Positions 3,292 through 32,600 of a DNA stretch of 37,289 nt are shown in pieces. The notes below the pieces were generated by a model. It was given only the letters and a program-made list of their open reading frames with translations, was not told the origin of the DNA and did no database searches. The DNA comes from Lachnospiraceae bacterium (GTDB lineage Bacteria; Bacillota; Clostridia; Lachnospirales; Lachnospiraceae), in the NCBI GenBank assembly GCA_024698145.1, contig JAILRO010000060.1, positions 1-37,289 of the forward strand, given 5' to 3'. Both the position numbers and the translations under genes were made by a program. Numbering within the stretch: position 1 is the stretch's first letter; each line of letters opens with the position of its first letter.

Positions 3292-4407
3292 ATGGATAAA
3301 CCAAAAAGAAACAATCTTCTTCCCTCAGACACAAAAATAATCGTACTCGGCTCGTTAGCGGTAATACTTATAGTTCTTGTATTATCGATACTCTTTCCCA
3401 ACGCTTCAAAAAAAGGGGAAGAAACAACCACAGAAGCCGCTACTACTGAAACAACCGTATCGGAAAAACTTCCTATGGGTTGGCAGGAAATTGACGGTGC
3501 CGAAAGGTACGTTCGTGCAGACGGAAAGATTGCAAAAAGTCAGTGGGTTGGCAACTATTATGTAGGTTCAACAGGCGCAAAATTTACTTGCGCCATAACC
3601 CCTGACGGCAAATATGTGGGATACGACGGTCTTGTCAACGACTCCGCCGGAATTACCGGAAGTCACTCCGGTCTTAACTCTCTTAAAAAAACTCTTGAAG
3701 ACACTGTTTCAGATTACCGCGGAACATGGTCTATCTATGTTAAGGACATCGGACACAACGAGTTTCTTCTAATCAACAACGTTCAACATTTTTCCGCCAG
3801 TTTAATAAAACTTTATTGCGCAGGTGCTGCATTTGAACTTATGGACGAAGGCAAACTTGAAAGAACCGACAAAGTCGACAACCTTATGTACCAGATGATT
3901 TCTGTAAGTGATAATGACGCATTTAATCTTATGGTTAGACAATGTGACGAGAATTACAACGCTGTAAACGGTTGCAAAGTCATTCAGCATTTTATAGACC
4001 GCGAGGGTTTTACCGACACAACCATTACCACAATGTTAATTCCAACCAAATACCCTTTTCCATCCTCACCCGGCCGTAATTATACGACTGTTGCGGATTG
4101 CGGAAAAATACTTGAAAAAATATACAAAAAACAACTTGTAAACCCTAAAGTATCTGATGAGCTTTTGGAACTTTTGCTTAACCAGCAACACATTAACAAA
4201 ATACCGGCAGGACTTCCCGAAGGTACCAAATGCGCCAATAAAACAGGCGACACCGATGATGCTCAACACGATGCCGCCATTGTCTATTCTCCCGGAGGAG
4301 ACTATATAATTGTTGTAATGAGCAGCAACTGCGGTGCTGCAATCCCTAACATTCAGAATATTTCTTCTATAGTGTATGATTACTTCAATAAGACTACTTC
4401 ACAGTAA
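3292..4407 (+). CDS. Membrane-tethered serine hydrolase of the class A beta-lactamase/transpeptidase fold
   Basis: A 371-residue protein. The ATG at 3292 is preceded by GAAAGGGAG. A short basic N-terminus and one membrane helix (15-36) are followed by a Thr/Glu linker. A Trp/Tyr/Gly-rich segment (62-112, GWQEIDGAERYV and SQWVGNYYVGSTG) resembles cell-wall-binding repeats. A beta-lactamase-like domain follows, with the three classical motifs: SLIK (Ser170, Lys173), SDN (206-208) and KTG (317-319). A clear omega-loop ExxxN general base was not found, so true beta-lactamase activity is doubtful. A penicillin-recognising peptidase or accessory hydrolase at the outer membrane face is more likely. 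The 3' end overlaps that of the convergent gene by 14 bp. Confidence 0.85.
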   Translation: MDKPKRNNLLPSDTKIIVLGSLAVILIVLVLSILFPNASKKGEETTTEAATTETTVSEKLPMGWQEIDGAERYVRADGKIAKSQWVGNYYVGSTGAKFTCAITPDGKYVGYDGLVNDSAGITGSHSGLNSLKKTLEDTVSDYRGTWSIYVKDIGHNEFLLINNVQHFSASLIKLYCAGAAFELMDEGKLERTDKVDNLMYQMISVSDNDAFNLMVRQCDENYNAVNGCKVIQHFIDREGFTDTTITTMLIPTKYPFPSSPGRNYTTVADCGKILEKIYKKQLVNPKVSDELLELLLNQQHINKIPAGLPEGTKCANKTGDTDDAQHDAAIVYSPGGDYIIVVMSSNCGAAIPNIQNISSIVYDYFNKTTSQ

Positions 4408-5647
4408 GCTTAGTCTTCTTCTTAGCCTTAGCCGACCTTGACTTATCAATGAGCTTCTTGACTTTATCTTTCTTTCCGGCAATCTTGATTGTAAGCTTCT
4501 TCGAGTTTGTATCGAATGCATTCTTACCAATCTTGCTAACCTTCTTGGACTTGATAGTAATCGTCTTAAGCTTCTTAGAATTGTAGAATGCTTTCTTACC
4601 GATAGTTGTGATATCTGCCTTGATAACAACAGATTCTAATTTCTTGTTATTGGCAAATGCTGAAGCTGCAATCTCTTTGACAGGATATTTCTTGCCGAGA
4701 ATCTTAATACTCTTCTCAACCGTTGCTTTCTTAGTAGAAGCACATTTCGTAACTACGATATATGCTTTCTTTTTCTTTCCTTTGCCCTTATATACAACCT
4801 TATAGCTTATAGGACCATTTGATGTAGGTGTTATATAACCATCTTCAAGAATAGCGTTCTTAATCGCTTCCTTTGGAATTGAAAGTGCAATTGACTCTTC
4901 GCCCGGACCCGGATATGCAATATCAACATCGATAATAAGTCCGTCCTTGCTCTCTGCGTGAACCCATGCTCCCGTATCCTTTGTTATATAATAATATATT
5001 GTTGCGTAATCCGGAGTTGAATCATCCTCTTCTTCAAAGTCATCTTCTTCTCCATCGTCCTCATCGTCCTCATCATCCTCGTCATCCTCGTCCTCTGAAT
5101 CGTCATCAGTGATAATGATTGGAATATCTGCCTTAAAGACATAACAGTTAAACTCTGTATCCGCACCAGTATGACTGTTGCTGACAAACACCGTAGCCTC
5201 ACCGTCATAAGCGTATGTTGCACCGTCAACAATCTTTGTCTCGACACCGTTCTCCACAAGTGTCTTACCTATTCCCTGAAGATCCTCCGGATCTGTCGGA
5301 TACTTATACCAGGTGCCTCCGTCTTTGTAGTATGTAACCTTCTCCTTTAAGTCTGTGTAATAATCCGTCCATTCCCCACTGTCTGGATCCTCTGACGATA
5401 TATTCTTGATATTATTCTTCTTATCAAGTTCCACCTTCTCATAGAGAATCGTCTCGTTCTCAGCACTTATAGAATATTCCAGAAACAATAACTGATTGGC
5501 ATCAAACGCGTTAAATGCAGCCTGAAGTGTAGCCTTGGGATCCGGCGTATCGGCCTTAACAACCGAAGGCTTTGTTGTAAGCACAAGCGCAGATACCAAA
5601 ACAAAGGACAATACAGTCCTTAAAACCTTAGAAAACTCTCTTTTCAT
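4394..5647 (-). CDS. Secreted protein with acidic tract and C-terminal Lys-rich LRR_5 module
   Basis: A 417-residue exported protein. The ATG at 5647 is chosen because GAGGAGG lies about 9 bp upstream; the in-frame ATG at 5665 overlaps that site. A signal peptide (1-33, ending VVKA) precedes a beta-rich region (40-260) vaguely like LolA/LppX-type lipoprotein folds but not assignable. An almost pure Asp/Glu run lies at 181-210. Residues about 318-390 form BspA-type LRR_5 repeats (VKEIAASAFANNKKLESV, TTIGKKAFYNSKKLKTI, SKIGKNAF), followed by a very basic tail (391-417). The same tail design ends the proteins at 11852 and 26685. Its function is unknown. Confidence 0.8.
   Translation of the reverse strand: MKREFSKVLRTVLSFVLVSALVLTTKPSVVKADTPDPKATLQAAFNAFDANQLLFLEYSISAENETILYEKVELDKKNNIKNISSEDPDSGEWTDYYTDLKEKVTYYKDGGTWYKYPTDPEDLQGIGKTLVENGVETKIVDGATYAYDGEATVFVSNSHTGADTEFNCYVFKADIPIIITDDDSEDEDDEDDEDDEDDGEEDDFEEEDDSTPDYATIYYYITKDTGAWVHAESKDGLIIDVDIAYPGPGEESIALSIPKEAIKNAILEDGYITPTSNGPISYKVVYKGKGKKKKAYIVVTKCASTKKATVEKSIKILGKKYPVKEIAASAFANNKKLESVVIKADITTIGKKAFYNSKKLKTITIKSKKVSKIGKNAFDTNSKKLTIKIAGKKDKVKKLIDKSRSAKAKKKTKLTVK
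5053..5097 (-). repeat. 9-bp-period repeat encoding the Asp/Glu run
   Basis: About five units of a 9-bp repeat (plus-strand unit CATCGTCCT and variants) encode repeated Glu-Asp-Asp in the secreted protein. Such a tract could change length by slippage in steps of three codons without breaking the frame. Confidence 0.7.
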
Positions 5648-5678
5648 ACATTGTAACCTCCTCATTTAAGATACTGTA

Positions 5679-7340: not shown

Positions 7341-9920
7341 TCATTTCCTCTTAACCCTCTGTAACTTCTCAAGCATAGGCTTTGCGCCTATCATCAGAAA
7401 TATAAATGTCGATACTGCATGAATTATATCAATCGGTATTCCCGGTGCATACGAAGCGAGCAACATCTTCCACGAAACATTTTCCTGATACATAAGCACG
7501 GAAGCCGGATTCATTATGCCACCATATATAACAAGGACAGCAAGCAGTCCGTAAACGCTAATCTTTATACGTATGTCCTTATCTTTGTCGGCGATTCGAT
7601 TAAAAATGAGTCCTGCCACTAGGCCTAACAATCCCATCGCAAACATTTGCCAGGGCGTCCACGGGCCCTGGCCGAAGAATATATCGGAAACAAGCATCGA
7701 CAACGCACCTACAATAAAGCCGTCCGTTCCACCGAGTGCAACACCCGATATTATTGTAAATGCAGCCATTGGTTTCACAGCCGGAACCATGTAAAATGCT
7801 GCTCTTGATAACGCCGTTATTGCTGCCATGGCTGCAACAGTTATTATTTCCTTAAGTCTGGGCTTGCCGTGTTCAAAGCCGGCAAGAAATGCCCCCACAC
7901 CCTCCACAATGAGTAAGAGTGAAATGAAGTAATACTTTCGTTGATGAAGCACTCTTTCACCAAAATATATTGTAAGTGGCATAAGAACAAGGAATGTGAG
8001 AAGCGGTATTATTGTCATACACAAGTTGGAAGTACTTTCTGTTTTTTCTCCCACGAGTATGTCATCTTCACATTTTACGCTATCTTTAGCATTCTCGTCA
8101 GGAATCTTATCGACGGACGAATACTCATCAGACTCGTTTTCGATATACTGTATATTCTCATCTAAATTTTTAGAATCATCAGAGCTTTCTTCCAGTGTAT
8201 CCTTGTTGTCTACAGAACTTTCACTGTCAGATTGCGAGTCATCCTGACTTGGATTCATAACACCACATAACTTTCCCTTGAAGACTTTCACAACATCTTC
8301 ATAGAGGACAGCATCTTCAATTATCCCCTTGCACATTCTACGTACTGCCGTTGTATAGAGAGAATTATCTTTGAAAAACTCCCTTGTGCTTACAAGTGAC
8401 ACAATGTGCCCGTCAAAAAACATACCGCAGCAGTCCGCATAAGAAGCACACATTTCCAGGTCATGACTTACCATGAGAATTGTCTTACCCTTTGCTGTAA
8501 GCTCTTTTAAGTATATTCCAAGTTTTTCCTTAAATGCATAATCCATTCCTTTTCCCGGCTCATCAAGAAGAAGAACATCTTGGCCTTGTGACACAAGTTT
8601 TGCCAATGCAAGCTTCTCCATTTGTCCACCGGAAAGGTCAAACGGATGCATATCCAGACATTCTTCAAGTTCAAAATGTTTAACAATATCCGGATAATCA
8701 CCAATCTCTTTTGAGACTTTATCATACAAAAACATTGCCTGTGGATTCTGTGGCAACATACCTATTGATATATCACCTTTTTTCACTTTACCGATATACG
8801 CAGCAATATTGCCGGCTAGCACGTGAAGAAGCGTCGATTTACCGGCTCCGTTTCCGCCCATCAACGCAGTAATCTTCCCTTCCGGTAGTTTGATATCACA
8901 ATTCTTTAAAACGTCGTTTGCATTCTTGTCATAACGAAACCACAACTCTTTTCCTTCGAGAATCGGTTTGTATTTCTTTTCAAACTCTCTTTTACCCGGC
9001 AAACTGTCACGACTCTTATCTTCTTTGCCACCGTAATCACAGGTCGACATATCCGGCACTTCCAAGTTATTTTTCGCCATATATCGTGATAGAAATTGTC
9101 TTCCTTCGTTGACACTTTCAGGAACCTTCTCATCGGATTTTCTTCCCTCTGTCAGATCATAAAAGAGCCTCGTTGCCACAGGGAGACTTCTAAACAACGA
9201 CAACCTGCCTTCATAAAGATATCGGCCAACCTCGTCAGTCGTACCATGCATAATCATTTTACCTTTATCAAGCACCAGGACTTTATCAGCCATCACATAC
9301 GCTTCTTCAAGCCTGTGTTCCGTCATAATTATTGTCGTTCCAAGTTCGTCGTGTATGCGTCTTACCATACGGAAAAACTCTGCCGCCGCCATAGGATCTA
9401 ACTGGCTTGTCGGCTCGTCAAGAATTAAGATTTCCGGCTCTGTAACCATTACCGCCGCAAGATTGACTAGTTGTCTTTGTCCCCCCGACAAATGAGACAG
9501 TTTTTCATGGAACACTTTTTCCAATCCAAAAAATGCCGCTATCTCGGATACTCTTCTCGACATAACATCCTGCGAAGCTCCCATGCTTTCAAGCCCAAAA
9601 GAAAGCTCATGCCACACTTTATCCGTCACCTGACACGCCTCTGCCTGCTGACCAACATAGCCTATCATAAATGCCTGCTGTTCATCGCTAAGTTCATCCA
9701 GCAAACTTCCCTCGACGTAAATGCGCGATTCCTTAGTAATGTTTCCCACAGGCTTATACGCAGGCTTTAAATGCCTAAGCAATGTCGTCTTGCCGCTTCC
9801 GGACTCACCGATCACAAGCAACATTTCACCTTTTCCTACAGAAAAAGAAACATCATCAAGTGCATAAGCTGCTCTTTCACTATATGAAAATGTCAAATTG
9901 CGGACATTGATTTCTTCCAT
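7341..9920 (-). CDS. Fused ECF transporter: two energy-coupling ATPases plus S-component-like membrane domain
   Basis: An 859-residue protein. The first ABC ATPase (1-235) has Walker A GESGSGKTT (38-46), LSGGQ (144-148) and Walker B LILDEP. The second (about 320-510) has GGNGAGKST (355-363), LSGGQ (429-433) and LLLDEP, with its His switch in VSHD. An acidic Ser/Asp linker (about 556-625) follows. The C-terminal 634-855 region has at least five membrane helices and a GPWTPWQMFAMGLLGLVAG segment typical of ECF S components. ECF transporters normally encode A, A' and S separately. The gene overlaps the end of ecfT by 28 bp and has AGGAAGGA before its ATG. Because of the upstream riboswitch, the inferred substrate is cobalamin or another corrinoid. 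Confidence 0.9.
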   Translation of the reverse strand: MEEINVRNLTFSYSERAAYALDDVSFSVGKGEMLLVIGESGSGKTTLLRHLKPAYKPVGNITKESRIYVEGSLLDELSDEQQAFMIGYVGQQAEACQVTDKVWHELSFGLESMGASQDVMSRRVSEIAAFFGLEKVFHEKLSHLSGGQRQLVNLAAVMVTEPEILILDEPTSQLDPMAAAEFFRMVRRIHDELGTTIIMTEHRLEEAYVMADKVLVLDKGKMIMHGTTDEVGRYLYEGRLSLFRSLPVATRLFYDLTEGRKSDEKVPESVNEGRQFLSRYMAKNNLEVPDMSTCDYGGKEDKSRDSLPGKREFEKKYKPILEGKELWFRYDKNANDVLKNCDIKLPEGKITALMGGNGAGKSTLLHVLAGNIAAYIGKVKKGDISIGMLPQNPQAMFLYDKVSKEIGDYPDIVKHFELEECLDMHPFDLSGGQMEKLALAKLVSQGQDVLLLDEPGKGMDYAFKEKLGIYLKELTAKGKTILMVSHDLEMCASYADCCGMFFDGHIVSLVSTREFFKDNSLYTTAVRRMCKGIIEDAVLYEDVVKVFKGKLCGVMNPSQDDSQSDSESSVDNKDTLEESSDDSKNLDENIQYIENESDEYSSVDKIPDENAKDSVKCEDDILVGEKTESTSNLCMTIIPLLTFLVLMPLTIYFGERVLHQRKYYFISLLLIVEGVGAFLAGFEHGKPRLKEIITVAAMAAITALSRAAFYMVPAVKPMAAFTIISGVALGGTDGFIVGALSMLVSDIFFGQGPWTPWQMFAMGLLGLVAGLIFNRIADKDKDIRIKISVYGLLAVLVIYGGIMNPASVLMYQENVSWKMLLASYAPGIPIDIIHAVSTFIFLMIGAKPMLEKLQRVKRK

Positions 9921-10756
9921 ATGATATCCTTCCTAATCTCCTCAATAACTGCACACATACACAGAATAAAATAAGCGATATACACGGTCAATCCGTATAT
10001 GTTAAGAGTTGCACCCTCCGTAATCGGATAATACGACCAGTACAAAACTCCTTTGATTTTTCCTATTATCACATAAGCAGCAAGTACAATAATTATAATC
10101 AGCATAACTCCGTCTCTTGTAGAGAACCTGTATATCGAATAGTTTCTGCGTCCTTCAAGACCATAGCCGCGGCCCCTCATGCTTTTCCCCAATTCTACCG
10201 AATCTTCAAGCATCCAAGTAACGAGTAATGACAACTGTTTTATCTTATAACTAATGGCAGGTATTCCGGATAGCGTCGCACCGTTTCCACACAATTTTAT
10301 CTGTTCGTATTTGTATTTTAATTTGGGGATAAATCCAAGAATCATCGAAAGCAAAAGACCTAATATAGGAAATGTTTTCCCGAACAAATATACAATTTTA
10401 TCTGCGGTTAATATTTCGCCCATTGTCCGAAACCAGACAAGACTCGCCCCAAGCATAAATGCAGCACCGATTCCAAACCATATAGATTCCAATGTCAACA
10501 TGTTGCCGCTTGGAAGCATGTAAAGTTCCGTCACTCCCTGATGCGAGAATGTAGGATTGATGAGTGCCGTCAGCAACATAAGAACAAAAACCGTCACAAA
10601 TCCTTTTCTCACCCTTGCAGCCCCAAATACATATAAGGCATACGCCACTGCACCTGTAATACTTATAATCAGACATATTGGATGAAGAAAACTCATAGAA
10701 AGTCCGATTACCACCGCAAAATATATGAAATTGACTATCGGATGGTACTGCTCCAT
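9893..10756 (-). CDS. ecfT: ECF transporter transmembrane component EcfT (CbiQ-like)
   Basis: A 287-residue membrane protein with five or six hydrophobic segments. A cytoplasmic coupling region carries the Arg-Gly motif MRGRGYGLEGRR (193-204), which in known ECF complexes docks onto the two ATPases. The length is slightly above the usual 250-270. It starts at an ATG preceded by GAGGTGA, 16 bp after the membrane-tethered DUF4430 gene, and overlaps the fused ATPase gene. It should bridge the ATPase domains and the S-like domain of its neighbour. Confidence 0.9.
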   Translation of the reverse strand: MEQYHPIVNFIYFAVVIGLSMSFLHPICLIISITGAVAYALYVFGAARVRKGFVTVFVLMLLTALINPTFSHQGVTELYMLPSGNMLTLESIWFGIGAAFMLGASLVWFRTMGEILTADKIVYLFGKTFPILGLLLSMILGFIPKLKYKYEQIKLCGNGATLSGIPAISYKIKQLSLLVTWMLEDSVELGKSMRGRGYGLEGRRNYSIYRFSTRDGVMLIIIIVLAAYVIIGKIKGVLYWSYYPITEGATLNIYGLTVYIAYFILCMCAVIEEIRKDIIWKKSMSAI

Positions 10757-10772
10757 ATTTCACCTCATAATC

Positions 10773-11828
10773 TCATTCAAAAGAAGAACCTACGTCCTTA
10801 CCAAAATTACACGTGTACACAAACTTGATTACATCACCGTCACTCACCTTATATCCCGAGCAACCCATTCCCGGGAACTTGTCATTGACACTATACATCC
10901 AGCCCGACAGGTTGCCGGCATCAAACTCGTATAAATTGCCAATGCCCTCGATATAGTAAGTCTTGTAAGCCGGCGTGTAGTTGTACTCCAAGTGAAGCTT
11001 GTTCTTTCTTGCAGCCTTGCTAAGCACGTCAAAAACTGTCGAGCCGTCCTTGACCTTCACCTCATAAGTTTCAAGCATCACGCCGTTTTCCGGAATAATT
11101 TTCTTCGTTGCGTCGCTTAACTTGTCCATGTGATCAAGCACGCTGGCACAACTTATATAAATGGTACATGTTATTGTGCCGTCTTCAACCTCCTCCGGCT
11201 CCTGCTTGTTTTTGTCAGTTTGGGTTGTCTCTGTAGTTTTATCCGTCGGCTTGTCATCTTTTATTTCCGACGTTTTTTCGGAAGTGTCCTCTTCTATCTT
11301 ATTGTCAGATTTCTTGCTGTCCGAATCGTCCTTTTTTTCATCAGACGTTCTATCTATATTATCGTTTTGTACGTTATTATCATTGTTATTCTCAGTACTT
11401 TTTTTACTTTTACGATTCTTTAATCTCTTATTCTTTTTTTCGTTTTTTACTACTGCCTTATTGGCATTTTTCTGCGCTCTTTTATTAAGCTGCGGATTCT
11501 TCTTTTTCTTAGACGAACCGACGTGCTTAATGTTCATCACTATCTTGTTAAAGAATCCACCCTTCTTTTTCTTGGAATTGTCTTTCGTTATTTTTGTCGT
11601 ATCTTTTTTTGTAACATCATGTGACGTGTTGACATTACTTTCTGTCTGCTTGACCGAAGCACTATCCGCATCAACATCCGTTCTGTATTCCGTCGTGACG
11701 GCAGTCGAATCATCGTCTGACGAAAAACCTCTAAGTCCGGGGGCATTTCCGCCGTACCAAAAGGCAAAAATAAGCGCCCCTACGACCAGAATTACACCAA
11801 ATAGTTTTTTCCATTTAACTCTGTTCAT
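10773..11828 (-). CDS. Membrane-tethered DUF4430 protein with long charged stalk, putative corrinoid-binding
   Basis: A 351-residue protein. One N-terminal membrane helix (8-25) acts as an uncleaved anchor or signal. Residues 26-216 are a low-complexity Lys/Asp/Asn/Thr stalk long enough to span part of the wall. Residues 217-351 are a DUF4430 domain, shown by GSTVFDVLSKA, TYYIEGIGNLYEFD, SGWMYSVND and DGDVIKFVY. DUF4430 is related to the beta domain of animal transcobalamin and intrinsic factor, which contacts B12. GGAGGTG precedes the ATG, 23 bp after the larger binder gene. I infer that it passes substrate from the wall protein to the ECF importer. The two Cys near GMGCSGY and YTCNFG could form a disulfide. 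Confidence 0.85.
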   Translation of the reverse strand: MNRVKWKKLFGVILVVGALIFAFWYGGNAPGLRGFSSDDDSTAVTTEYRTDVDADSASVKQTESNVNTSHDVTKKDTTKITKDNSKKKKGGFFNKIVMNIKHVGSSKKKKNPQLNKRAQKNANKAVVKNEKKNKRLKNRKSKKSTENNNDNNVQNDNIDRTSDEKKDDSDSKKSDNKIEEDTSEKTSEIKDDKPTDKTTETTQTDKNKQEPEEVEDGTITCTIYISCASVLDHMDKLSDATKKIIPENGVMLETYEVKVKDGSTVFDVLSKAARKNKLHLEYNYTPAYKTYYIEGIGNLYEFDAGNLSGWMYSVNDKFPGMGCSGYKVSDGDVIKFVYTCNFGKDVGSSFE

Positions 11829-11851
11829 AGGAGCACCTCCATTACATTAAA

Positions 11852-14311
11852 TTATTTCTTTTTAGCTTTCTTTTTTGTCTTCTTCACAAACTTAAACTTA
11901 GCTTTTTTAACACCGGCCTTTTTGATCATCTTAACAATCTTCTTATACTGTTTCTTTGTTTTTGCTGAAACTTTGATTGTTGCATTTTTCTTGATGCCGC
12001 TAAATGCATTCTTTCCAATTGATTTTATTGAATCTCCATCAACGCTGATTTTACTAAGCTTTGTACATCCGGCAAATGCGCCCGCACCAATCTTGGTAAC
12101 GTTCTTACCGATGTTTACAGTTGTGAGGTTCTTGTTATCCTTACAAGCATTTTCAGCAACCTCAGTTACCTTATATGTTGTCTTTGTATCAGGATCTGTA
12201 ACAGTGTCTGATATGGTAACTTTCTTTGCTTTTGAGTTGTCATCACCTGTATATGCAACTGTCTGTTTCTTCTCATCTGTACTTGTTACTGTATAAGTAT
12301 CCTTAACAGTCTTTGGTGCTTCAGCAGTTGTTGTAGGTGCCTGTGTTGTTTCCTGTTTCTTACCTGTTGCAGGAACATCCTTCTGTGCCTCTATAATTGC
12401 TCCACATACCGAACACTTCTTACCGGCAGTCTTGCCTGCGGTAGTCTCTGTTGCCGCAACTGCAGGAATCTCTACAGGTTTATGACCTTGGGCTGCGATT
12501 TCTTGACCCTTCTCGACAATCTCACCACAGTCCACGCAAACTTTGTCTCCTGTGTAACCTTTTTCGTTACATTTAGGCTCTTTGGCATCTTTAGTTACAA
12601 CTTTATGCGCGTGATCTTCTGACATAAACAATCTTGAATTGTCTTCAATCATAAGATCAAGAGAAGTAAGCGCATACAGCACCTGCTGTGTAGCAAGTGC
12701 ATTCTTTTTTGTGTCCTTTGCAGAGTTTTTGAATCCTTTATCTTCTTCGTTATAATAAGCAAGTGTTGCATCAAGCAGAGATTTTCCATTCTTGATAAAT
12801 CTTTCATCACAATCAGGATTAAGTCCAAGCGCTGTCAATGCACAAATCACCTGCGCGCAACTGCAACTGTTTTCATTACCCCAACTACTGTAACCACCAT
12901 TTTCATTTTGCATATTTGAAAGAACCGTTAATGCATTATCTACAGCATTTTTAACTTTTTTGTTTGATTTGTAATACGGAGCCAACGCCTGTATAGCCAT
13001 ACCTGTAAGGTCAGGATCGGAAGTTTTCGATGTAGCAGTGTAATTCCAGCCACCATCTGCTATACGCGCGTCTAAAATACCGTTTATAAGTAATTCTCTT
13101 GTCGTCTGTGTACCCTCGCCCTCAATTTCCGGAACTTCATGCTTTCCTGAATCAAGTGCAATCAATGCATATATTATGCCATTAGCACCCTGTTTCTTTA
13201 CATAATCATAATTTGCAAGTGGAGAAATAAGATTGTATCCTGATACATCTTCAGGATTTTTATCAACAGCATTAAGCACTAGTGCTATTTTAGAGTTATT
13301 TGTAGAGTTTGTCTTATGAAGAATATTTGAACCATTCTCTTTAACCTTATCTTCTACACTGTTTATATACAAATCGTTCCAAGCCTTATCGCTTAATCCT
13401 TTTCTTGCAATTGACAAAACTGTCCATTCATTACCATATGCAGGTGATGTAAGTTCTTCTTTAGCATTTGTTAACACTTCTTTATATGCTTCACTGTATT
13501 TATCTAAAGTCTTAACATTCTCTGTCGCAGTATCAACTTCTGCTTCAGTAGCGTCCCAATCTTCTAAAACTGCGACCGCATCTGTATATCCTTTACAGTC
13601 TCTGTTTCCTGTATAATCAACTATTGCACGAATAAGTTCATCTTTGTCTGCAAAATCGATGAGTGTGGTTCCATACGCAATGTTAAGGTCACCGCCGTAA
13701 TAGTATATTCCATATTCTATACGAATAACTGAACCATCGTGATATGCCGATCCGTCTGTTGCAGCGCCATTTTTAAGGCCTGATATTCCATATTGTGCCG
13801 ATTTATTATCAACACATACCATAAGATATGACTGACCTGTATAATCATAATTTGCTAATGTATCTGCCTTTGTTCTTTTTGTAATTTCATTTTTCTTTAC
13901 AGCAGGTGGTGCATATTCACCTTCTGCACCTGCGTCTAAAGCCTCTATAATCTTTTCGGGTATATCGTCTGTTGTCCAACCCTCAGGTTCTCCACCATCA
14001 ACAAATCCATCAAAACTTTTTCCATAATCGCCATCAGATACAATTATGCTATCCTTACCATATGCTCTTTTAAGAATATCCTCAACTGTATCCCCATCAT
14101 CATAACCTATCTTCTTTGGCTCAGCAGCAAGTCCCTGACCTAAAGTAAATCTCTCTACAGTTACATACACATAACCGGCGTATTCAGCTTTAGCTTTAGC
14201 TTCAGCATTAACAACTGTTGTACTTCCCGGAGAAATGATACCAACAACCATTGCAATGGCAAGTATCAATGAGAAGATTCTTTTCTTCTGTTGCATCATT
14301 CTTTTCGTCAT
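11852..14311 (-). CDS. Secreted DUF4430 + alpha/alpha-toroid protein with LRR_5 tail, intrinsic-factor-like
   Basis: An 819-residue exported protein. Signal peptide 1-36. A DUF4430-like beta domain lies at about 44-205 (DGDTVEDILKRAYG near 72, SVIRIEYGIYY near 194). A prenyltransferase/squalene-cyclase-type alpha/alpha toroid lies at about 285-560, with repeats DGGWNYT and DLTGMAIQALAPYY, then ENGGYSSWG and CAQVICALTALGLNP. Two Cys-x2-Cys modules follow (592/595 and 633/636, each before a Gly-x-Ile), then a Thr-rich linker, LRR_5 repeats (672-780) and a Lys-rich tail. Transcobalamin and intrinsic factor use the same two folds in the reverse order. The ATG overlaps the upstream TGA (ATGA), suggesting translational coupling. 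B12 capture is inferred from architecture and riboswitch context; the catalytic DxDD of true cyclases was not seen. Confidence 0.85.
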   Translation of the reverse strand: MTKRMMQQKKRIFSLILAIAMVVGIISPGSTTVVNAEAKAKAEYAGYVYVTVERFTLGQGLAAEPKKIGYDDGDTVEDILKRAYGKDSIIVSDGDYGKSFDGFVDGGEPEGWTTDDIPEKIIEALDAGAEGEYAPPAVKKNEITKRTKADTLANYDYTGQSYLMVCVDNKSAQYGISGLKNGAATDGSAYHDGSVIRIEYGIYYYGGDLNIAYGTTLIDFADKDELIRAIVDYTGNRDCKGYTDAVAVLEDWDATEAEVDTATENVKTLDKYSEAYKEVLTNAKEELTSPAYGNEWTVLSIARKGLSDKAWNDLYINSVEDKVKENGSNILHKTNSTNNSKIALVLNAVDKNPEDVSGYNLISPLANYDYVKKQGANGIIYALIALDSGKHEVPEIEGEGTQTTRELLINGILDARIADGGWNYTATSKTSDPDLTGMAIQALAPYYKSNKKVKNAVDNALTVLSNMQNENGGYSSWGNENSCSCAQVICALTALGLNPDCDERFIKNGKSLLDATLAYYNEEDKGFKNSAKDTKKNALATQQVLYALTSLDLMIEDNSRLFMSEDHAHKVVTKDAKEPKCNEKGYTGDKVCVDCGEIVEKGQEIAAQGHKPVEIPAVAATETTAGKTAGKKCSVCGAIIEAQKDVPATGKKQETTQAPTTTAEAPKTVKDTYTVTSTDEKKQTVAYTGDDNSKAKKVTISDTVTDPDTKTTYKVTEVAENACKDNKNLTTVNIGKNVTKIGAGAFAGCTKLSKISVDGDSIKSIGKNAFSGIKKNATIKVSAKTKKQYKKIVKMIKKAGVKKAKFKFVKKTKKKAKKK

Positions 14312-14592
14312 ACTTCTTCCTTTCCTTTCTTCTCCGCCATGTTTTGTTTCTTGTTTATTTTTCTTTCTGCATTTCTTACTCTTTTTTGCAATATGCGTTT
14401 TTCTTCTCTTTGCTGCTTTTTCGTGACAGGTTTGGAATCCTTGACTCCGGCAGCTTCAAGAGCACGCGGCCACGGACCGAAATGCGACTTGATTGCCGCA
14501 ACCTCATGAAAAGAGAAATCCGTCTTCTTTGGCAATCGCCCAAGTTCTTTGTACTTGTTATTGATCAATTCAATACACTGATTACCCGTCAT
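14308..14592 (-). CDS. Small basic protein with HNH/homing-endonuclease-associated repeat
   Basis: A 94-residue protein, first gene after the cobalamin riboswitch. The ATG at 14592 is selected by GAGGAGAG six bases upstream; further upstream in-frame starts lack a site. The N-terminal half, with LGRLPKKTDF, IKSHFGPWPRALEAAGV and regular spacing, matches the short helical HNH-associated repeat found near homing endonucleases and as stand-alone proteins in Clostridia. The C-terminal half is Lys/Arg/Gln-rich and probably helical. No nuclease domain is present. Nucleic-acid binding is likely; a role in B12 uptake is unknown. Its stop overlaps the next start by four bases. Confidence 0.75.
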   Translation of the reverse strand: MTGNQCIELINNKYKELGRLPKKTDFSFHEVAAIKSHFGPWPRALEAAGVKDSKPVTKKQQREEKRILQKRVRNAERKINKKQNMAEKKGKEEV

Positions 14593-14789
14593 ACTTACTC
14601 TCCTCGCCACTTTTAATCTCGTCATGCATTTCAAATAAAAAAACCAACACGCATGCCACACATGGCACCTCGTATCGGCATCTTATCATTGGTATGCATA
14701 AGTCAAAGCAACATCTTAAACACACAAAGAAAACTTCGCGCATTTTGCGAAATGAACAAATCGCTCTTCCTTAACCCAAAAGCTAAAAT

Positions 14790-14905
14790 GCCGGAATATG
14801 CGGGTAATCTGGCTTAAAGGAATCATTTCCTTAACACAGTAATGGCGGTTGCACCGCATTCTCACCGGGTTTCCCCCTAATCTGACTTTCGTCAGAGCTA
14901 TATTC
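14790..14905 (-). ncRNA. Cobalamin riboswitch
   Basis: Read on the minus strand, the leader contains the conserved elements in order: GGGGAAACCCGGTGAGAAT (14875-14857), GCGGTGCAACCGCC, then ACTGTG (B12-box region) and AAGCCAGATTACCCGC. A local hairpin of AAGGAAATGATTCCTT separates the last two. This is the cobalamin riboswitch consensus, slightly divergent at the B12 box. It lies between a strong promoter and the five-gene uptake operon. Repression by bound cobalamin is expected. The expression platform was not resolved; it may lie in the 200 nt before the first ATG. Confidence 0.92.
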
Positions 14906-14924
14906 CTATGAAATTACAAGACAT

Positions 14925-14953
14925 ATTGTAAGTGCAGTAAACACAAATGTCAA
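14925..14953 (-). promoter_or_regulatory. Promoter of the cobalamin uptake operon
   Basis: On the minus strand, TTGACA (14953-14948) and TACAAT (14930-14925) are separated by 17 bp, just upstream of the riboswitch. The -35 is perfect and the -10 differs at one position. Confidence 0.85.
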
Positions 14954-15053
14954 TCGAAAAAATAGAGGCAATTATTGTTTCTCAATATACAAAATCTGCA
15001 TTATCCAAACACTTATCGAATATCATGTAAAGAAGACGAATTGGAGAAGATGT

Positions 15054-26684: not shown

Positions 26685-29600
26685 TTAATATTTTTTAACT
26701 TTAACCTTTTTGGACAATCCTTTGCTTCTGAACAATTTCTTGTAAGCTTTGACTTTGCTCTTGTGTACTTTTATCACTGTGCTTTTCTTGATTCCCTTAA
26801 AGGCTTTCTTGTGGAGCTTCTTCTTATTAAGCTTCTTGCTCTTGATTATTATTGTCCTTAACTTAGAGCATCCGTTAAATGCATTGGCACCAATAGTTGT
26901 TATGTTGCTGCCAACCGTTACCTTCTTAAGATTCTTGGCACCTGCAAATGCGTTACTTCCAATCTCTGTAATGTTATTACCAAGAGTGATTTCCGTGATC
27001 GCTTTATTGTTCTTAAATGCATTGTCCGCAACCTTGGTTACCTTGTAAGTAACACCATTAAGAGTTACCGTATCCGGTACCTTAACTTTCTTTGCCTTGG
27101 TATCAATCGGTCCTGCATAAGAAACTGTCGGATTAGCAGAATCTGTGCTGGTGATTACATAGTTCTGTCCTGTTGACTCATCAGCAACACTTGTTCCAAC
27201 TGCAACCTGAGGTGCTTGTGTTGTGCCCTGACCCTGAGGTGTTGTCTGACCCGGTACAGGCTGTGGCTGCGGCTGTGGTTGTGGCTCCGGTTCAGGTTCA
27301 ACTAATGTAGAGAGGTCTGTCCAATGCGCATATAATACGTGATTATATGGCTTTTCTACTATTGATTCGGCAGTTATCAGGTCACCATCATCTGCTTTTG
27401 TGAACCAGCCGTCAAATCTGAAACCATCTCTTTCTAGTTCAGGAAGTTCACCATACGATGAAGAATACTGAACCTTCGTATCTCCTACTATACCTTCGCC
27501 GTAATTCATGTCGAATGAAACCTTAACCCATAACGGTGCTGTATCATCCCACCATTGTGCATACAAAGTGTGCGAATCCTGAAGCTCGCATATCGTTTCC
27601 TCATCTACACGCTCTCCGTTCTTTTGTTCTGTGTACCAACCCAGGAACAAATATCCTTCTCTTTGAGCTTCCGGCAATTCTCCATATGCCGTGTCAGAAA
27701 CAACCAACTTATCATTTACTTCTACTTCACCATTGTTTGCATCAAATGTTACAGTGATTTTAACCTTAGCCTTTTCCCAACGAGCATATATCTCGTGGTC
27801 ACTTGTTTTTTCAACAACCGTATTGAACAATATCTCACTGCCACCTTCAGGCGCTGTAAACCATCCAACAAAATCATAGCCGTCTCTCTCCGGCATCGGA
27901 AGATTACCGTAGATTCCACCCACCGCGCGATCATACGTTTCAACTTCTTCCTCGCCATCTTTCAGAGTAACAGTAATTATTTGCTCTGTCCAATGTGCAT
28001 ATAATGTATGTGCTTCTTTGTCGGTTACAGTAGTATCCGATGTAATGATCTCGCCTTCATCTACCTCTGTAAACCAACCTGTAAATACATATCCTGCTCT
28101 TGCCGGTGTTGGTAATGTTCCATACACTTCACCATATGTAACTTCTTTAACACTTGTCTCAACATTTCCGCCATTAGCGTTAAATGTCACCTGTACATTT
28201 CTGGCCTCTTTTACCCAATGTGCATATAATATATGGTCGGTATCACGCCACATCACATCATCGTTATATACTCTTTCTCCGCCACTTCCGGATGTAAACC
28301 ATCCAACGAACACATAATCCTCGCGTGTAACCTCAGGCATGCTTGCCCCATATGTATCGCCGTACGAAAGCGTCGCAGAAGATGATGCAGGAACACCACC
28401 GTTAGCATTAAATGTTACCTGTACCGTTTTGTGTGTCCAATGTGCATATATTACGTGATCATCCTTGTTCGTTACTGTAGTGGTGGCTATCACTTCAGTA
28501 CCGCCATCCTGTGTCGTGAACCATCCTTCAAAATTATATCCGGTTCTTACAGGCGTATCAAATCCACCATACGTACTATCAACTGTCACCTCTTTACCCC
28601 ACGAAGATACACTACCTCCGTTGGCATTATAGATAACATTAACCTTATATACTATACGAGTCCAATGTGCCCACAAAGTTCTGGTCGTCATAGCCTTATC
28701 GACAGAAGTAATCTTAGTTCCTCCCTCTTCCGAATCATACCAACCATCAAACGTATAATTCTCCCTTTCAATAACAGGCAGATCATAAGATGAACCCTGT
28801 ACAAGTTGAAGTGTTACCTCTTCTCTACCATCAATCATACCACCATTTGCGTCATATGTTATATCAACATACGTTGTCGTATTGGTCTTTGTCCAATGTG
28901 CGTATATACTATGGGCCGCTGTTGTAGTAACTTTCGTTTCACTAAACACTCTTGTTCCATCGTTTGATGACGTGTACCATCCACCAAATGTATATCCGCT
29001 TCTTGTCGGGGTTGGAAGTTCTCCGTATGTTTCTCCTGCCGTCACATTCGCGCTCGTCTTTGTTACGTTTCCACCATTGGCATTAAACGTAACCACAACT
29101 GTTATCGGATTCCATCTTGCAATAAGAGTGTGTGCACTCTCATTCAAAACCTGTGTAGACGATGTAACCTTTGTTCCACCGGTCTTTGCCGTATACCAAC
29201 CTGCGAATTCACAATACTCTTTGTAAGGTACCGGAAGATCAGTATAGTTACCACCATACGTATAATCCACATTTCTCGAACCTGACATCGTTCCGCCATT
29301 AGGATTAAATGTTACCGCAACAGTTTTTGCAGTCCAGCTTGCATATATCGAATGATCCTTAGCGATATTCACAATGCTGTCAGAAGAAATCTTGTTACCG
29401 AACTCATCATACCAGCCATCAAAATTATATCCGGTGCGAGTAGGTGTTTCCAACTCTCCGTATGTTGCATCATATGTAACCTGCTTACTTGTTGATGATA
29501 TGCTTCCGGTATCCGCATTAATATCATATGTTACTGTATAAGTATTTGCTTTCCAATGAGCATATATCGTCTGCGCAGAAGTCTGCGTAAGTTTCGTACT

Positions 29601-32600
29601 TTCTGTAACCTTCGTTCCTCCGGATATAGCTGTATGCCAACCATCAAAAGAATATCCGGTTTTTGTAGGTGTCGGAAGTTCACCGTATGCCACATCATAT
29701 TCTATCTGCTTACTTGTTGGGGTTACATTTCCACCGTTAGCATTAAACGTCAATGTGTATTTGTTCTTCGTCCATCTTGCATATATCGTATGGTCAGAGG
29801 TCTGCTGTACAGTAGTTTTGTCAGTCACCTGTGTTCCGCCCGTCTTGCTTGTGTACCATCCAACAAATGTTGAACCCGGCAAAGTAGGAACCGGAAGAGT
29901 ACCATATTGCTTACCGTACTCAACCATTTTGATTTCATCTCTTACGCTTCCACCATTTGGATCAAAAGTAACTGTGCACGCCATTACTGACCAATGTGCA
30001 TATAATGTCTGATTATCGGTTATCAAAACTCTCGATGTGGCAGTAACCTCTTCACCACCGGAAGCTGATGTAAACCAACCTAAGAAGGTGTAGCCATCAC
30101 GTTCAGGAGTTTTCAACTCCCCGTATAAATCGTTGTATGTAACCTTCTTCACTCCATAATTGAGACTGACACCATTACCGTTATATGACACGTTGTAGGT
30201 ATTAGCGGTCCATCTTGCATACAATGTTATATCTGATGTAAGCTCAACTATACTGTCCGCCTTAACGAGTGTACCACCTGTTTTTGCGGTGTACCAACCT
30301 GTAAGTGTATATCCTGTACGACTCGCAATCGGAAGATCTCCATACGACTGTCCATATACAACACTTATCGTATCTGTAACATCCTCACCATCTCCCGCAT
30401 CAAACGATACAGTATAATTATTAACTGACCAATGCGCATACAGAATCTGATCATCTGTAATGGTTACAACGCTCGATTCAGTAATCAATGTTCCGCCGGA
30501 TGTTGAAGTATACCATCCTTCAAAGGTGTGCCCCTGATATTCAGGAATAGGTAATTCCCCGTAAAAATCGTCACTTACAACATTTACACTTTCAGGTGTA
30601 ACTGTTCCTCCGTTAGGATTAAATGTTACCTTATACGAATTGTTTGACCACATAGCATACAAAGTATGGTCTGTCGCAATATTAACTGTAGTTGATTCGT
30701 ATATTCTCGTTCCGTTGGTCTTTGCTGTATACCAACCGGTAAATGTATATCCCGAACGTGTCGGAGTAGGAAGACTTGCATACTTACTTCCAAACGTATA
30801 TGTTTTGCTTGCCACACTTACCGAACCACCATTAGCATTAAATGTAACTTTTGGTGTAGCAGCCGTCCAGTGTGCATACAATGTTTGATTGGATGTAATA
30901 TTGACACTTGTTGAAGATGTAATCTTCGAACCTGATGTTTTATCCGTGTACCAACCATTAAAGGTATAGCCAGATACTGACGGTGACGGAAGTGTTCCAT
31001 ATGTTCCGCCATAAGTTACCTGCTGCGAATTAATACTGCTACTTTCATTACTAAGATTAATATCAAACGATATTGTATATTTCTTTGCTGTCCAATGTGC
31101 ATATATTGTATGATCTGCAAGTTTTGACATAGTTGTCTCTGAAGTGATCAAAGTTCCGCCGGTCTTTGCTGTATACCAGCCATCAAAATTGTATCCTGTA
31201 CGTGTCGGTTGCTCAAGATTTCCGTATTGAGCACCATATGCAACCGTAAAACTTTCTTTGTCGACACTTCCACCATTGGCATCGTATGTAACCGTATATC
31301 TGTTGGTTATCCAATGTGCATATATCGTCGTATCGGTGGTTGACTTAAATATTGTTGACTCAAGAACTCTATTTCCACTAGTCTGAGCCGTGAACCAACC
31401 ATCAAATGTATGTCCGGTATATTCCGGTGTCGGAAGTTCTCCGTACTCGCTATCATAACTTACATTCTTGTAGGTAGGAGTTACACTTCCTCCATTCGGA
31501 TTGAATGTTACTTTCTTGGTGTTTGCTGTCCAGCGTGCATATAATGTCTGATTTGATGTTATTTCAACTCTTGTAGAAGCCGTAATCTGGGTTCCACCTG
31601 TCTTTGCCGTATACCAGCCAACAAATGTATATCCTGTTCTTGGGTTCGGATCACCCAAATTACTATAGGTGCCACCATAAGAAACTGTAAAACTGGTAGT
31701 GGCTACCGAACCTCCATTGGCATCTAAGTTGATGGTGTATGTCGATGTAGTCCAGTGCGCATATAATGTCTGATTACTCTCCGTCGAATACACACTACTC
31801 TCCGTAATCTTAGTTCCTCCCGATATAGCTGTGTACCAACCGGCAAATGAATAACCGGGGTTTGTCGGTGTCGGAAGGTCAGCATATGCACTTCCATAAG
31901 TATATGTTTTTTTGGTAGGGCTCACTGTACCACCGTTGGCATCAAAAGTAACGGTATAAGTGTCTGCTTCCCAATGTGCATATATGGTTATATTAGTTGT
32001 GGATTTAAATATTGTCGTTCCAAATATTTTATCTCCACCTGATGCCTTTGTGTACCATCCAACGAATGTATGTCCCGCATATGTCGGTGTAGGAAGGTCA
32101 CCGTATGCAGATTCATAGTCTATCTGTCTGCTTGTTTCCGTTACACTTCCTCCATTAGGGTTAAACGTCACCTTATATTTTCTTGCAGTCCAATGCGCAT
32201 ATAACGTCTGATTAGATGTCAATTGAACTGTTGTAGAAGTAGTAATCTGAGTTCCGCCGGTTCTTTCTGTATACCATCCATTAAAAGTATATCCTGTTCT
32301 CGCATAAGGATCCTTTAGATTTCTATATGTACCGCCGTTAGTAACTGTAAAACTTGTTGTAGATACCGTACCACCGTTGGCATCTAAGGTAACCGTAAAT
32401 GTGTTAGTTGTAGATGCAGCTGTCCAATGCGCATACAAAGTCTGAGCACCCACTGTCGAGTATATACTGCTTGTAGTAACCTTTGTTCCGCCCGATGCAG
32501 CAGTATACCAACCGTCAAAAGAATATCCAGAATACGTCGGTGTAGGAAGGTCAGTGTATGCACTTCCATAAGTATATGTATTGCTTGTTGGACTAACCGT

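Follow-up and report, generated by a model that had tools for sequence, protein, structure and literature searches.

A Lachnospiraceae operon predicted to capture and import corrinoids under the control of a cobalamin riboswitch

The closest described system was predicted in 2007, when Burroughs et al. recognised a Gram-positive, transcobalamin-like clade of SLBB proteins with toroid fusions, paired paralogues and operons containing CbiO/CbiQ-like genes, predicted that it scavenges B12, and proposed a Gram-positive origin of animal transcobalamin (PMC1796856; here and below, statements about cited papers refer to the portions of their text accessible to us). DUF4430 is the family of the C-terminal domain of animal transcobalamin (PMC4350170, PMC1796856). 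On the import side, the energy-coupling factor (ECF) transporter ECF-CbrT (PDB entry 6FNP) transports cobalamin and cobinamide with CbrT as its binding subunit (PMC5997447), and CbrUVT is an accepted corrinoid-uptake gene set (PMC8123684, PMC6722938). The B12 importers of many gut bacteria are unidentified, which has been called an open problem (PMC6593275). We analysed a stretch of 37,289 nucleotides from a Lachnospiraceae bacterium (assembly GCA_024698145.1, contig JAILRO010000060.1; hereafter the window) in which five minus-strand genes follow a cobalamin riboswitch. Judging from the sequence, this operon is real, conserved and functionally coherent. We consider it likely that, surface proteins included, it serves the riboswitch-controlled capture and import of corrinoids (B12-type cobamides): corrinoid import by the operon is very likely, and corrinoid binding by its surface proteins is probable.

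An earlier note on this DNA had claimed a cobalamin riboswitch and five adjacent genes, and our scans found both. On the minus strand, a promoter-like pair, the riboswitch, a terminator-like hairpin and five genes, separated by very small gaps or overlapping, succeed one another down to position 7341. The aptamer (14783..14917) scored 31.8 bits for RF00174, whose gathering score is 31.5; its E value was 0.00016 across the window and 2.2e-6 across 501 bases. The match covers the model from end to end (positions 1-189 of 189) apart from an internal stretch, and it is the single cobalamin riboswitch detected in the genome. A putative sigma-70 type promoter (14925..14953, TTGACA, 17 nt, TACAAT, 11/12 consensus matches) ends 7 bases before it. 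Downstream lies a terminator-like hairpin with a T-rich tail (14733..14753), a possible expression platform. Both came from consensus scans without an excess of sites across the region (20 promoter-type sites versus 20.7 in shuffles, 4 terminator-type sites versus 4.6), so that position alone speaks for either. The fold of 14725-14917 is modestly stable (z = -1.66 versus shuffles). With a score near the cut-off and a modest fold, the credibility of the window's riboswitch comes from its homologues; in one homologous operon (locus L033; loci in other genomes are numbered in this way throughout), RF00174 scored 38.9 bits at the corresponding place.

The two genes farthest from the riboswitch encode the ECF transporter parts, S-like domain included, that the earlier note had named. 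The last of them (7341..9920, minus strand, like every operon feature described below) encodes a fused ATPase-ATPase-S-component protein of 859 residues with two PF00005 stretches, Walker A and LSGGQ each occurring twice, and a PF07155 domain. Its ABC domains matched ECF_ATPase profiles best, below the NCBIfam equivalog cut-offs. We searched A8, a profile of 30 S domains, against 177,635 PDB sequences. The best match was 6FNP chain A (E 7.9e-14, positions 27-199); the next S-component followed at E 0.0035, with no further S-component at E up to 1. We infer that 6FNP chain A is CbrT because this chain is unique to 6FNP in the match lists while EcfT is common to other entries. The S domain of the window (7344..7943) is CbrT-like. 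The preceding gene (9893..10756) encodes a 287-residue protein that had no Pfam match as a single sequence. Its family profile matched solved EcfT (E 1.4e-9), suggesting an EcfT-like transmembrane component, CbrV-like by role.

The host cell appears to need finished cobamides. Its genome, rated 99.85% complete, encodes a MetH-like protein whose domains are S-methyl_trans, Pterin_bind and the two B12 domains, a B12-binding radical-SAM protein and two BtuR-type adenosyltransferases, and a MetH-like enzyme requires a complete cobamide. CobS was not found in this genome by a search that matched 10/14 control genomes. Searches of the same genome also failed to find the FecCD/BtuC permease family (PF01032; 13/14 control genomes matched) and a PduO-type adenosyltransferase (PF01923; 9/14 matched). 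An idea that tied the short riboswitch to a host unable to make adenosylcobalamin was dropped, as the two BtuR-type genes are present despite the missing PF01923. A single CbrT-like S domain was detected in the genome (A8 at E <= 1). Of the importer kinds for which we searched, which did not include BtuM among others, this operon is the only candidate found.

As the earlier note had proposed, a DUF4430-type domain appears to be present in both surface proteins of the operon. The 351-residue protein (10773..11828) starts with a transmembrane-like helix (residues 4-30), continues with a long charged linker and ends with DUF4430 (PF14478, 69.9 bits, residues 262-339); no other PF14478 match in the genome reached E <= 0.001. 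The 819-residue protein (11852..14311) is predicted to be secreted and comprises a signal peptide, an N-terminal DUF4430/transcobalamin-beta-type domain, an alpha/alpha toroid, Cys-rich repeats, an LRR_5 region and a Lys-rich tail. Its N-terminal domain (residues ~40-205, 13697..14194) scored 18.1 bits against Pfam DUF4430, below the 23.8 cut-off, and among seven homologous N-domains scanned, the window's included, two matched weakly and five did not match. Profile-profile comparison supports the assignment even so: the profile of these seven domains matched the 351-residue family with 95.8% hhalign probability and E 6.9e-9, whereas two unrelated control profiles gave 0.1%. The toroid (residues ~285-563, 12623..13459) scored 24.2 bits against SQHop_cyclase_C, just under the 26.1 cut-off. 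The alpha/alpha fold named in the earlier note holds through its homologues, which at E up to 1 matched SQHop_cyclase_C in 55/57 cases and Prenyltrans in 47/57. The LRR_5 region (11951..12163, PF13306, 43.5 bits) leads into the Lys-rich tail, and the two together may bind the protein to the wall. The earlier note had spoken of a wall-bound binder: no LPxTG motif was found in the 819-residue protein, but SLH-type wall anchors do occur in the toroid proteins of its relatives (see below).

We searched the 819-residue protein against 39 relatives and its own genome and examined 17 stretches surrounding the matches. Homologous operons were present in 12/23 same-genus genomes; in the other 11, the matches listed covered the tail module only. 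A riboswitch match preceded the surface-protein gene in 11/11 testable same-genus operons, the twelfth (L048) beginning at a contig end with no upstream sequence to scan. Four of these matches reached the Rfam gathering level (L033, L036, L037, L038). The other seven (L034, L035, L039, L040, L041, L042, L047) came from R1, a covariance model of ours with only 4 base pairs. In lax Rfam mode, four of the seven gave a cobalamin-clan match at the same place (27.9-33.3 bits, below gathering). L034 lies on the same contig as L053, an R1 training row with a sub-gathering Rfam score of 25.9 bits, and the riboswitches of L035 and L039 rest solely on R1. Rfam riboswitch matches were also found in L043, L044 and L045, which come from other families within the order; L043 and L045 have toroid/DUF4430 genes and no EcfT-like gene in the stretch. 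L046, where the operon is present, and L049 had no riboswitch match by Rfam or R1. In one same-genus genome, a gene begins after the operon (L038, 18558-19001, plus strand) whose N-terminus we take to resemble the cobalamin-independent methionine synthase MetE.

To survey the operon more widely, we searched genome contigs with the EcfT-like family and took 80 loci from at least 572 confirmed relatives. Going by their names, they belong to various Clostridia families and to Paenibacillus, with numerous metagenome-assembled genomes among them; six (L050-L055) lie on contigs that had come up before. R1 matched at 40 bits or more, upstream and on the same strand, in 40/80 loci (35/74 without the repeats): 30/45 of those with at least 9 kb upstream and 10/35 of those with less. 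Four further R1 matches of at least 40 bits were not upstream on the importer strand (L063, L067 (a second match), L069 and L080). A count from the B12-box motif alone had been too loose and was replaced by Rfam matches and the covariance model. By Rfam alone, combining coordinates with a B12-box check, 35/80 loci had an upstream same-strand riboswitch, two of them (L053, L075) below gathering. Chance would give ~0.24 such matches in the 578,716 upstream bases, an expectation derived from 183 Rfam matches at E up to 0.001, weak ones included, in ~221 Mb and like-for-like with the Rfam count of 35, not the R1 count of 40; the density search behind it, over 49 genomes, applied stricter filters. 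In Paenibacillus, L069 (13385-19904) and L080 (13411-17324) each carry, on the opposite strand, a second large DUF4430 gene directly preceded by a cobalamin riboswitch of its own, and the gene in L069 also encodes a toroid.

The gene content around these importers was also conserved. The ATPases and the S domain share one frame in 66 of the 80 loci, the S domain stands apart in 4, and 10 lack a downstream S domain, nearly all of them at contig ends (L088 is not). In two loci (L036, 11343-13867; L070, 10846-13495), two overlapping frames encode the S domain, possibly through a frameshift or a sequencing error. A DUF4430 gene was found beside the EcfT-like gene in 67/80 loci, and in all 60 of the loci with an upstream toroid match (60/80, a few of them weak). 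The usual order is a toroid protein of ~550 residues, a DUF4430 protein of ~300 residues, the EcfT-like protein and the fused ATPase-ATPase-S protein; ahead of this set there is often a further surface protein, very large, with DUF4430 or a toroid, and surface genes are often the ones nearest the riboswitch. SLH wall-binding domains terminate 9/10 toroid proteins scanned. The relatives' DUF4430 proteins mostly begin with a membrane helix; one matched a lipobox pattern, and by eye several others resemble lipoproteins. Wall and membrane tethering in the relatives is thus plain at the level of predicted domains. Thirteen loci had no DUF4430 gene in the stretch; three of these (L057, L115, L129), which also lack a toroid gene there, keep a riboswitch match just upstream of the EcfT-like gene and are possibly a version free of surface binders.

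Taken together, these results argue for corrinoid import, the function put forward in the earlier note: it is well supported because the riboswitch, the CbrT-like S domain, a host need for which the tested alternatives were not found, and a linkage kept in many genomes all point to it. In the cobalamin riboswitch class, repression is lifted at low cobalamin (PMC11477304), and the window's riboswitch, if it behaves like its class, would permit expression when cellular cobalamin is low. The secreted 819-residue protein would then capture corrinoids near the wall through its DUF4430-type domain and toroid, and the membrane-tethered 351-residue protein would share in the capture or in a hand-over whose order we can only suggest. 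The CbrT-like S domain, joined to two ATPases, would import the corrinoid together with the EcfT-like protein. The imported corrinoid would supply the MetH-like methionine synthase and, once adenosylated, whatever other B12 enzymes the cell has. A more specific arrangement can be sketched by analogy. Separately made alpha and beta halves of human transcobalamin come together only when cobalamin is present (PMC5599065). In the loci of many Clostridia and Paenibacillus, a wall-anchored protein bears the toroid half and an adjacently encoded, membrane-tethered protein bears the DUF4430 half; the two would face each other across the wall space. We tentatively propose a split transcobalamin, in which the vitamin would close the two halves upon each other above the CbrT-like S domain; capture, bridging of the wall space and hand-over might then be one event. 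We rate this version of the mechanism as possible and rather doubtful.

Several observations weigh against a corrinoid capture and import system of this kind. The window's riboswitch exceeds the gathering score by only 0.3 bits. R1 gave no upstream match reaching 40 bits in 15/45 loci with at least 9 kb upstream and in 25/35 with less. The positives are partly dependent on the model itself: 24/30 training rows of R1 come from the 80 loci, and 24/40 R1-positive loci were such rows, although all 24 had first been found by Rfam (L053 below gathering). The 40 also include L051-L055, five loci from contigs that had already come up. Of the 16 positives that were not training rows, L051, L052, L054 and L055 repeat the contigs of L042, L041, L036 and L037, the last two being training rows themselves. 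The toroids resemble cyclase/prenyltransferase profiles far more than the animal cobalamin-binding profile. That profile, Cobalamin_bind (PF01122), weakly matched 3/57 toroids (best E 0.0057) and matched none of 54 genomes over the cut-off; its control search also gave a below-cut-off match in B. subtilis. In PDB searches at E up to 10, profiles of both surface families matched neither transcobalamin nor intrinsic factor chains, and smaller alignments of these families likewise matched no transcobalamin chain. Among the 15 R1-negative loci with at least 9 kb upstream, L057 had an Rfam match over the cut-off immediately upstream, and L101 and L120 had a same-strand Rfam match just outside the stretch, on what are, by their matching number, presumably the same contigs.

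The ECF part could import corrinoids while the DUF4430/toroid proteins are merely co-regulated and serve, for example, adhesion or another ligand. The cyclase/prenyltransferase likeness of the toroids would suit such a role, as would the LRR_5 module, common in the genus, and the fn3 domains of two large relatives; L057, L115 and L129, where a riboswitch match precedes the EcfT-like gene in a stretch free of DUF4430 genes, suggest that the importer may not need surface proteins everywhere. A reviewer of the 2007 paper likewise cautioned against assuming B12 for every member (PMC1796856). We consider a separate surface role unlikely: DUF4430 is the family of the transcobalamin beta domain, its gene stands beside the importer in every one of the 60 loci with an upstream toroid, and the surface genes often lie nearest the riboswitch. 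The substrate itself may be questioned too. Were the operon to import a corrinoid precursor or a lower base (cobinamide, cobyrinate diamide or dimethylbenzimidazole) and not complete cobamides, the cell would have to assemble the nucleotide loop, which by the known route should be impossible in a genome where CobS was not found, and the MetH-like enzyme would still demand the complete cobamide. Precursor import therefore seems improbable to us, even with the precedents that exist for it: CbrUVT has been assigned to cobyrinate diamide uptake and CblTS to dimethylbenzimidazole uptake (PMC8123684), and cobinamide is among the substrates of ECF-CbrT (PMC5997447).

We find it scarcely credible that the operon imports cobalt, or an unrelated vitamin with only coincidental riboswitch control. 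CbiMNQO cobalt importers also lie under cobalamin riboswitches (PMC11477304, PMC4285132), and Pfam's top S-family label for the S domain is that of the riboflavin S-component. Against this, neither CbiM nor CbiN was among the matches listed for the five proteins (for the 859-residue protein, the best 25), and the S domain is nearest to CbrT. Nor did the loci scanned lie under a riboswitch of another class, an outcome that the earlier note had named as telling against its reading: none appeared at gathering level in the first 17 loci, nor in full Rfam scans of 7/15 R1-negative loci, which returned tRNAs and an ssnA RNA. We retain corrinoid capture and import as the function of the operon, with surface binding as its less certain part.

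One gene of the five calls for a correction. The earlier note had counted five genes with four described; the riboswitch-proximal one encodes a small basic HNH_repeat protein (PF18780, 48.4 bits), for which we see no obvious part in import. It comprises 94 residues from a likely ATG at 14592 (14308..14592), preceded by a purine-rich stretch; the open reading frame as listed is 14308-14661, 117 residues. Its stop overlaps the start of the 819-residue gene. By tblastn, a homologue is present in 9/12 same-genus loci (L033, L035, L036, L038, L039, L040, L041, L042, L047), between the riboswitch and the surface gene or between the surface gene and the DUF4430 gene, and its role is perhaps regulatory. 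The LRR_5 tail module of the 819-residue protein recurs in many other proteins across same-genus genomes, and two neighbours in the window, proteins of 423 and 2590 residues (4394-5665 and 26685-34457, both minus strand), share a C-terminal LRR_5-type module with it. This module is possibly a general surface anchor in the genus.

If corrinoid capture and import is correct, a capture system of transcobalamin-type domains, coupled to a CbrT-type pump, would close part of the gap in gut B12 importers and would explain how wall-covered cells concentrate a scarce vitamin. It would also open the Gram-positive origin proposed for animal transcobalamin to experiment. The operon makes the 2007 prediction directly testable. 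A label used by some annotation pipelines, such as 'additional lipoprotein component of predicted cobalamin ECF transporter', may denote this DUF4430 protein. A riboswitch-regulon survey that places 26 B12 transport-gene orthologues under cobalamin riboswitches may include genes of this kind (PMC3766115).

Among described systems, two are set apart by parts that were not found. The FecCD/BtuC permease of BtuFCD was absent from the search results for the window genome, and CbiM and CbiN of the CbiMNQO cobalt importer from the matches listed for the five proteins. The surface proteins of the window probably have folds unrelated to those of the B12-binding lipoproteins of Bacteroides. These lipoproteins share with them surface capture of corrinoids before import and belong to a Gram-negative outer-membrane system (PMC6143338). 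Animal transcobalamin and intrinsic factor share a DUF4430-family beta domain and an alpha/alpha toroid (PMC5599065, PMC1796856). The analogy drawn in the earlier note is supported at the domain level and is weaker for the toroid, which is only marginally like the animal profile. The order in the 819-residue protein, beta then toroid, is the reverse of that in animal transcobalamin, and the relatives' two domains, often on separate proteins, are cell-anchored and linked to a pump. ECF-CbrT (CbrTUV; Santos et al. 2018) has a homologous S domain and EcfT-like and ATPase parts, but there a shared module and separate subunits are used, whereas the window joins both ATPases and the S domain in one polypeptide and encodes two surface proteins alongside (PMC5997447). 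Our phrase searches of the open-licence literature returned no description of S-component/ATPase fusions.

The 2007 SLBB clade comes closest. It shares secreted DUF4430-type proteins, some fused to toroids, a second paralogue and CbiO/CbiQ-like genes (PMC1796856). In the window, we found DUF4430 over the Pfam cut-off in the 351-residue protein, signal or transmembrane segments, and CbiO/CbiQ-like linkage. The earlier note knew of no characterised Gram-positive system of this design. The general design had in fact been predicted in that paper; on characterisation the note was right as far as our searches go, which found no experimental study of such a system in the open-licence literature and nothing on one in the accessible portions of PMC5640608, PMC3306737, PMC2667541 and PMC7478625. 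In the accessible text of the 2007 paper, the word riboswitch is absent and no fusion of a CbrT-type S domain to ATPases is described (PMC1796856). What our analysis adds to that prediction is the control by a riboswitch, the kinship with CbrT, the need of the host and the division of the two transcobalamin-like halves between wall and membrane.

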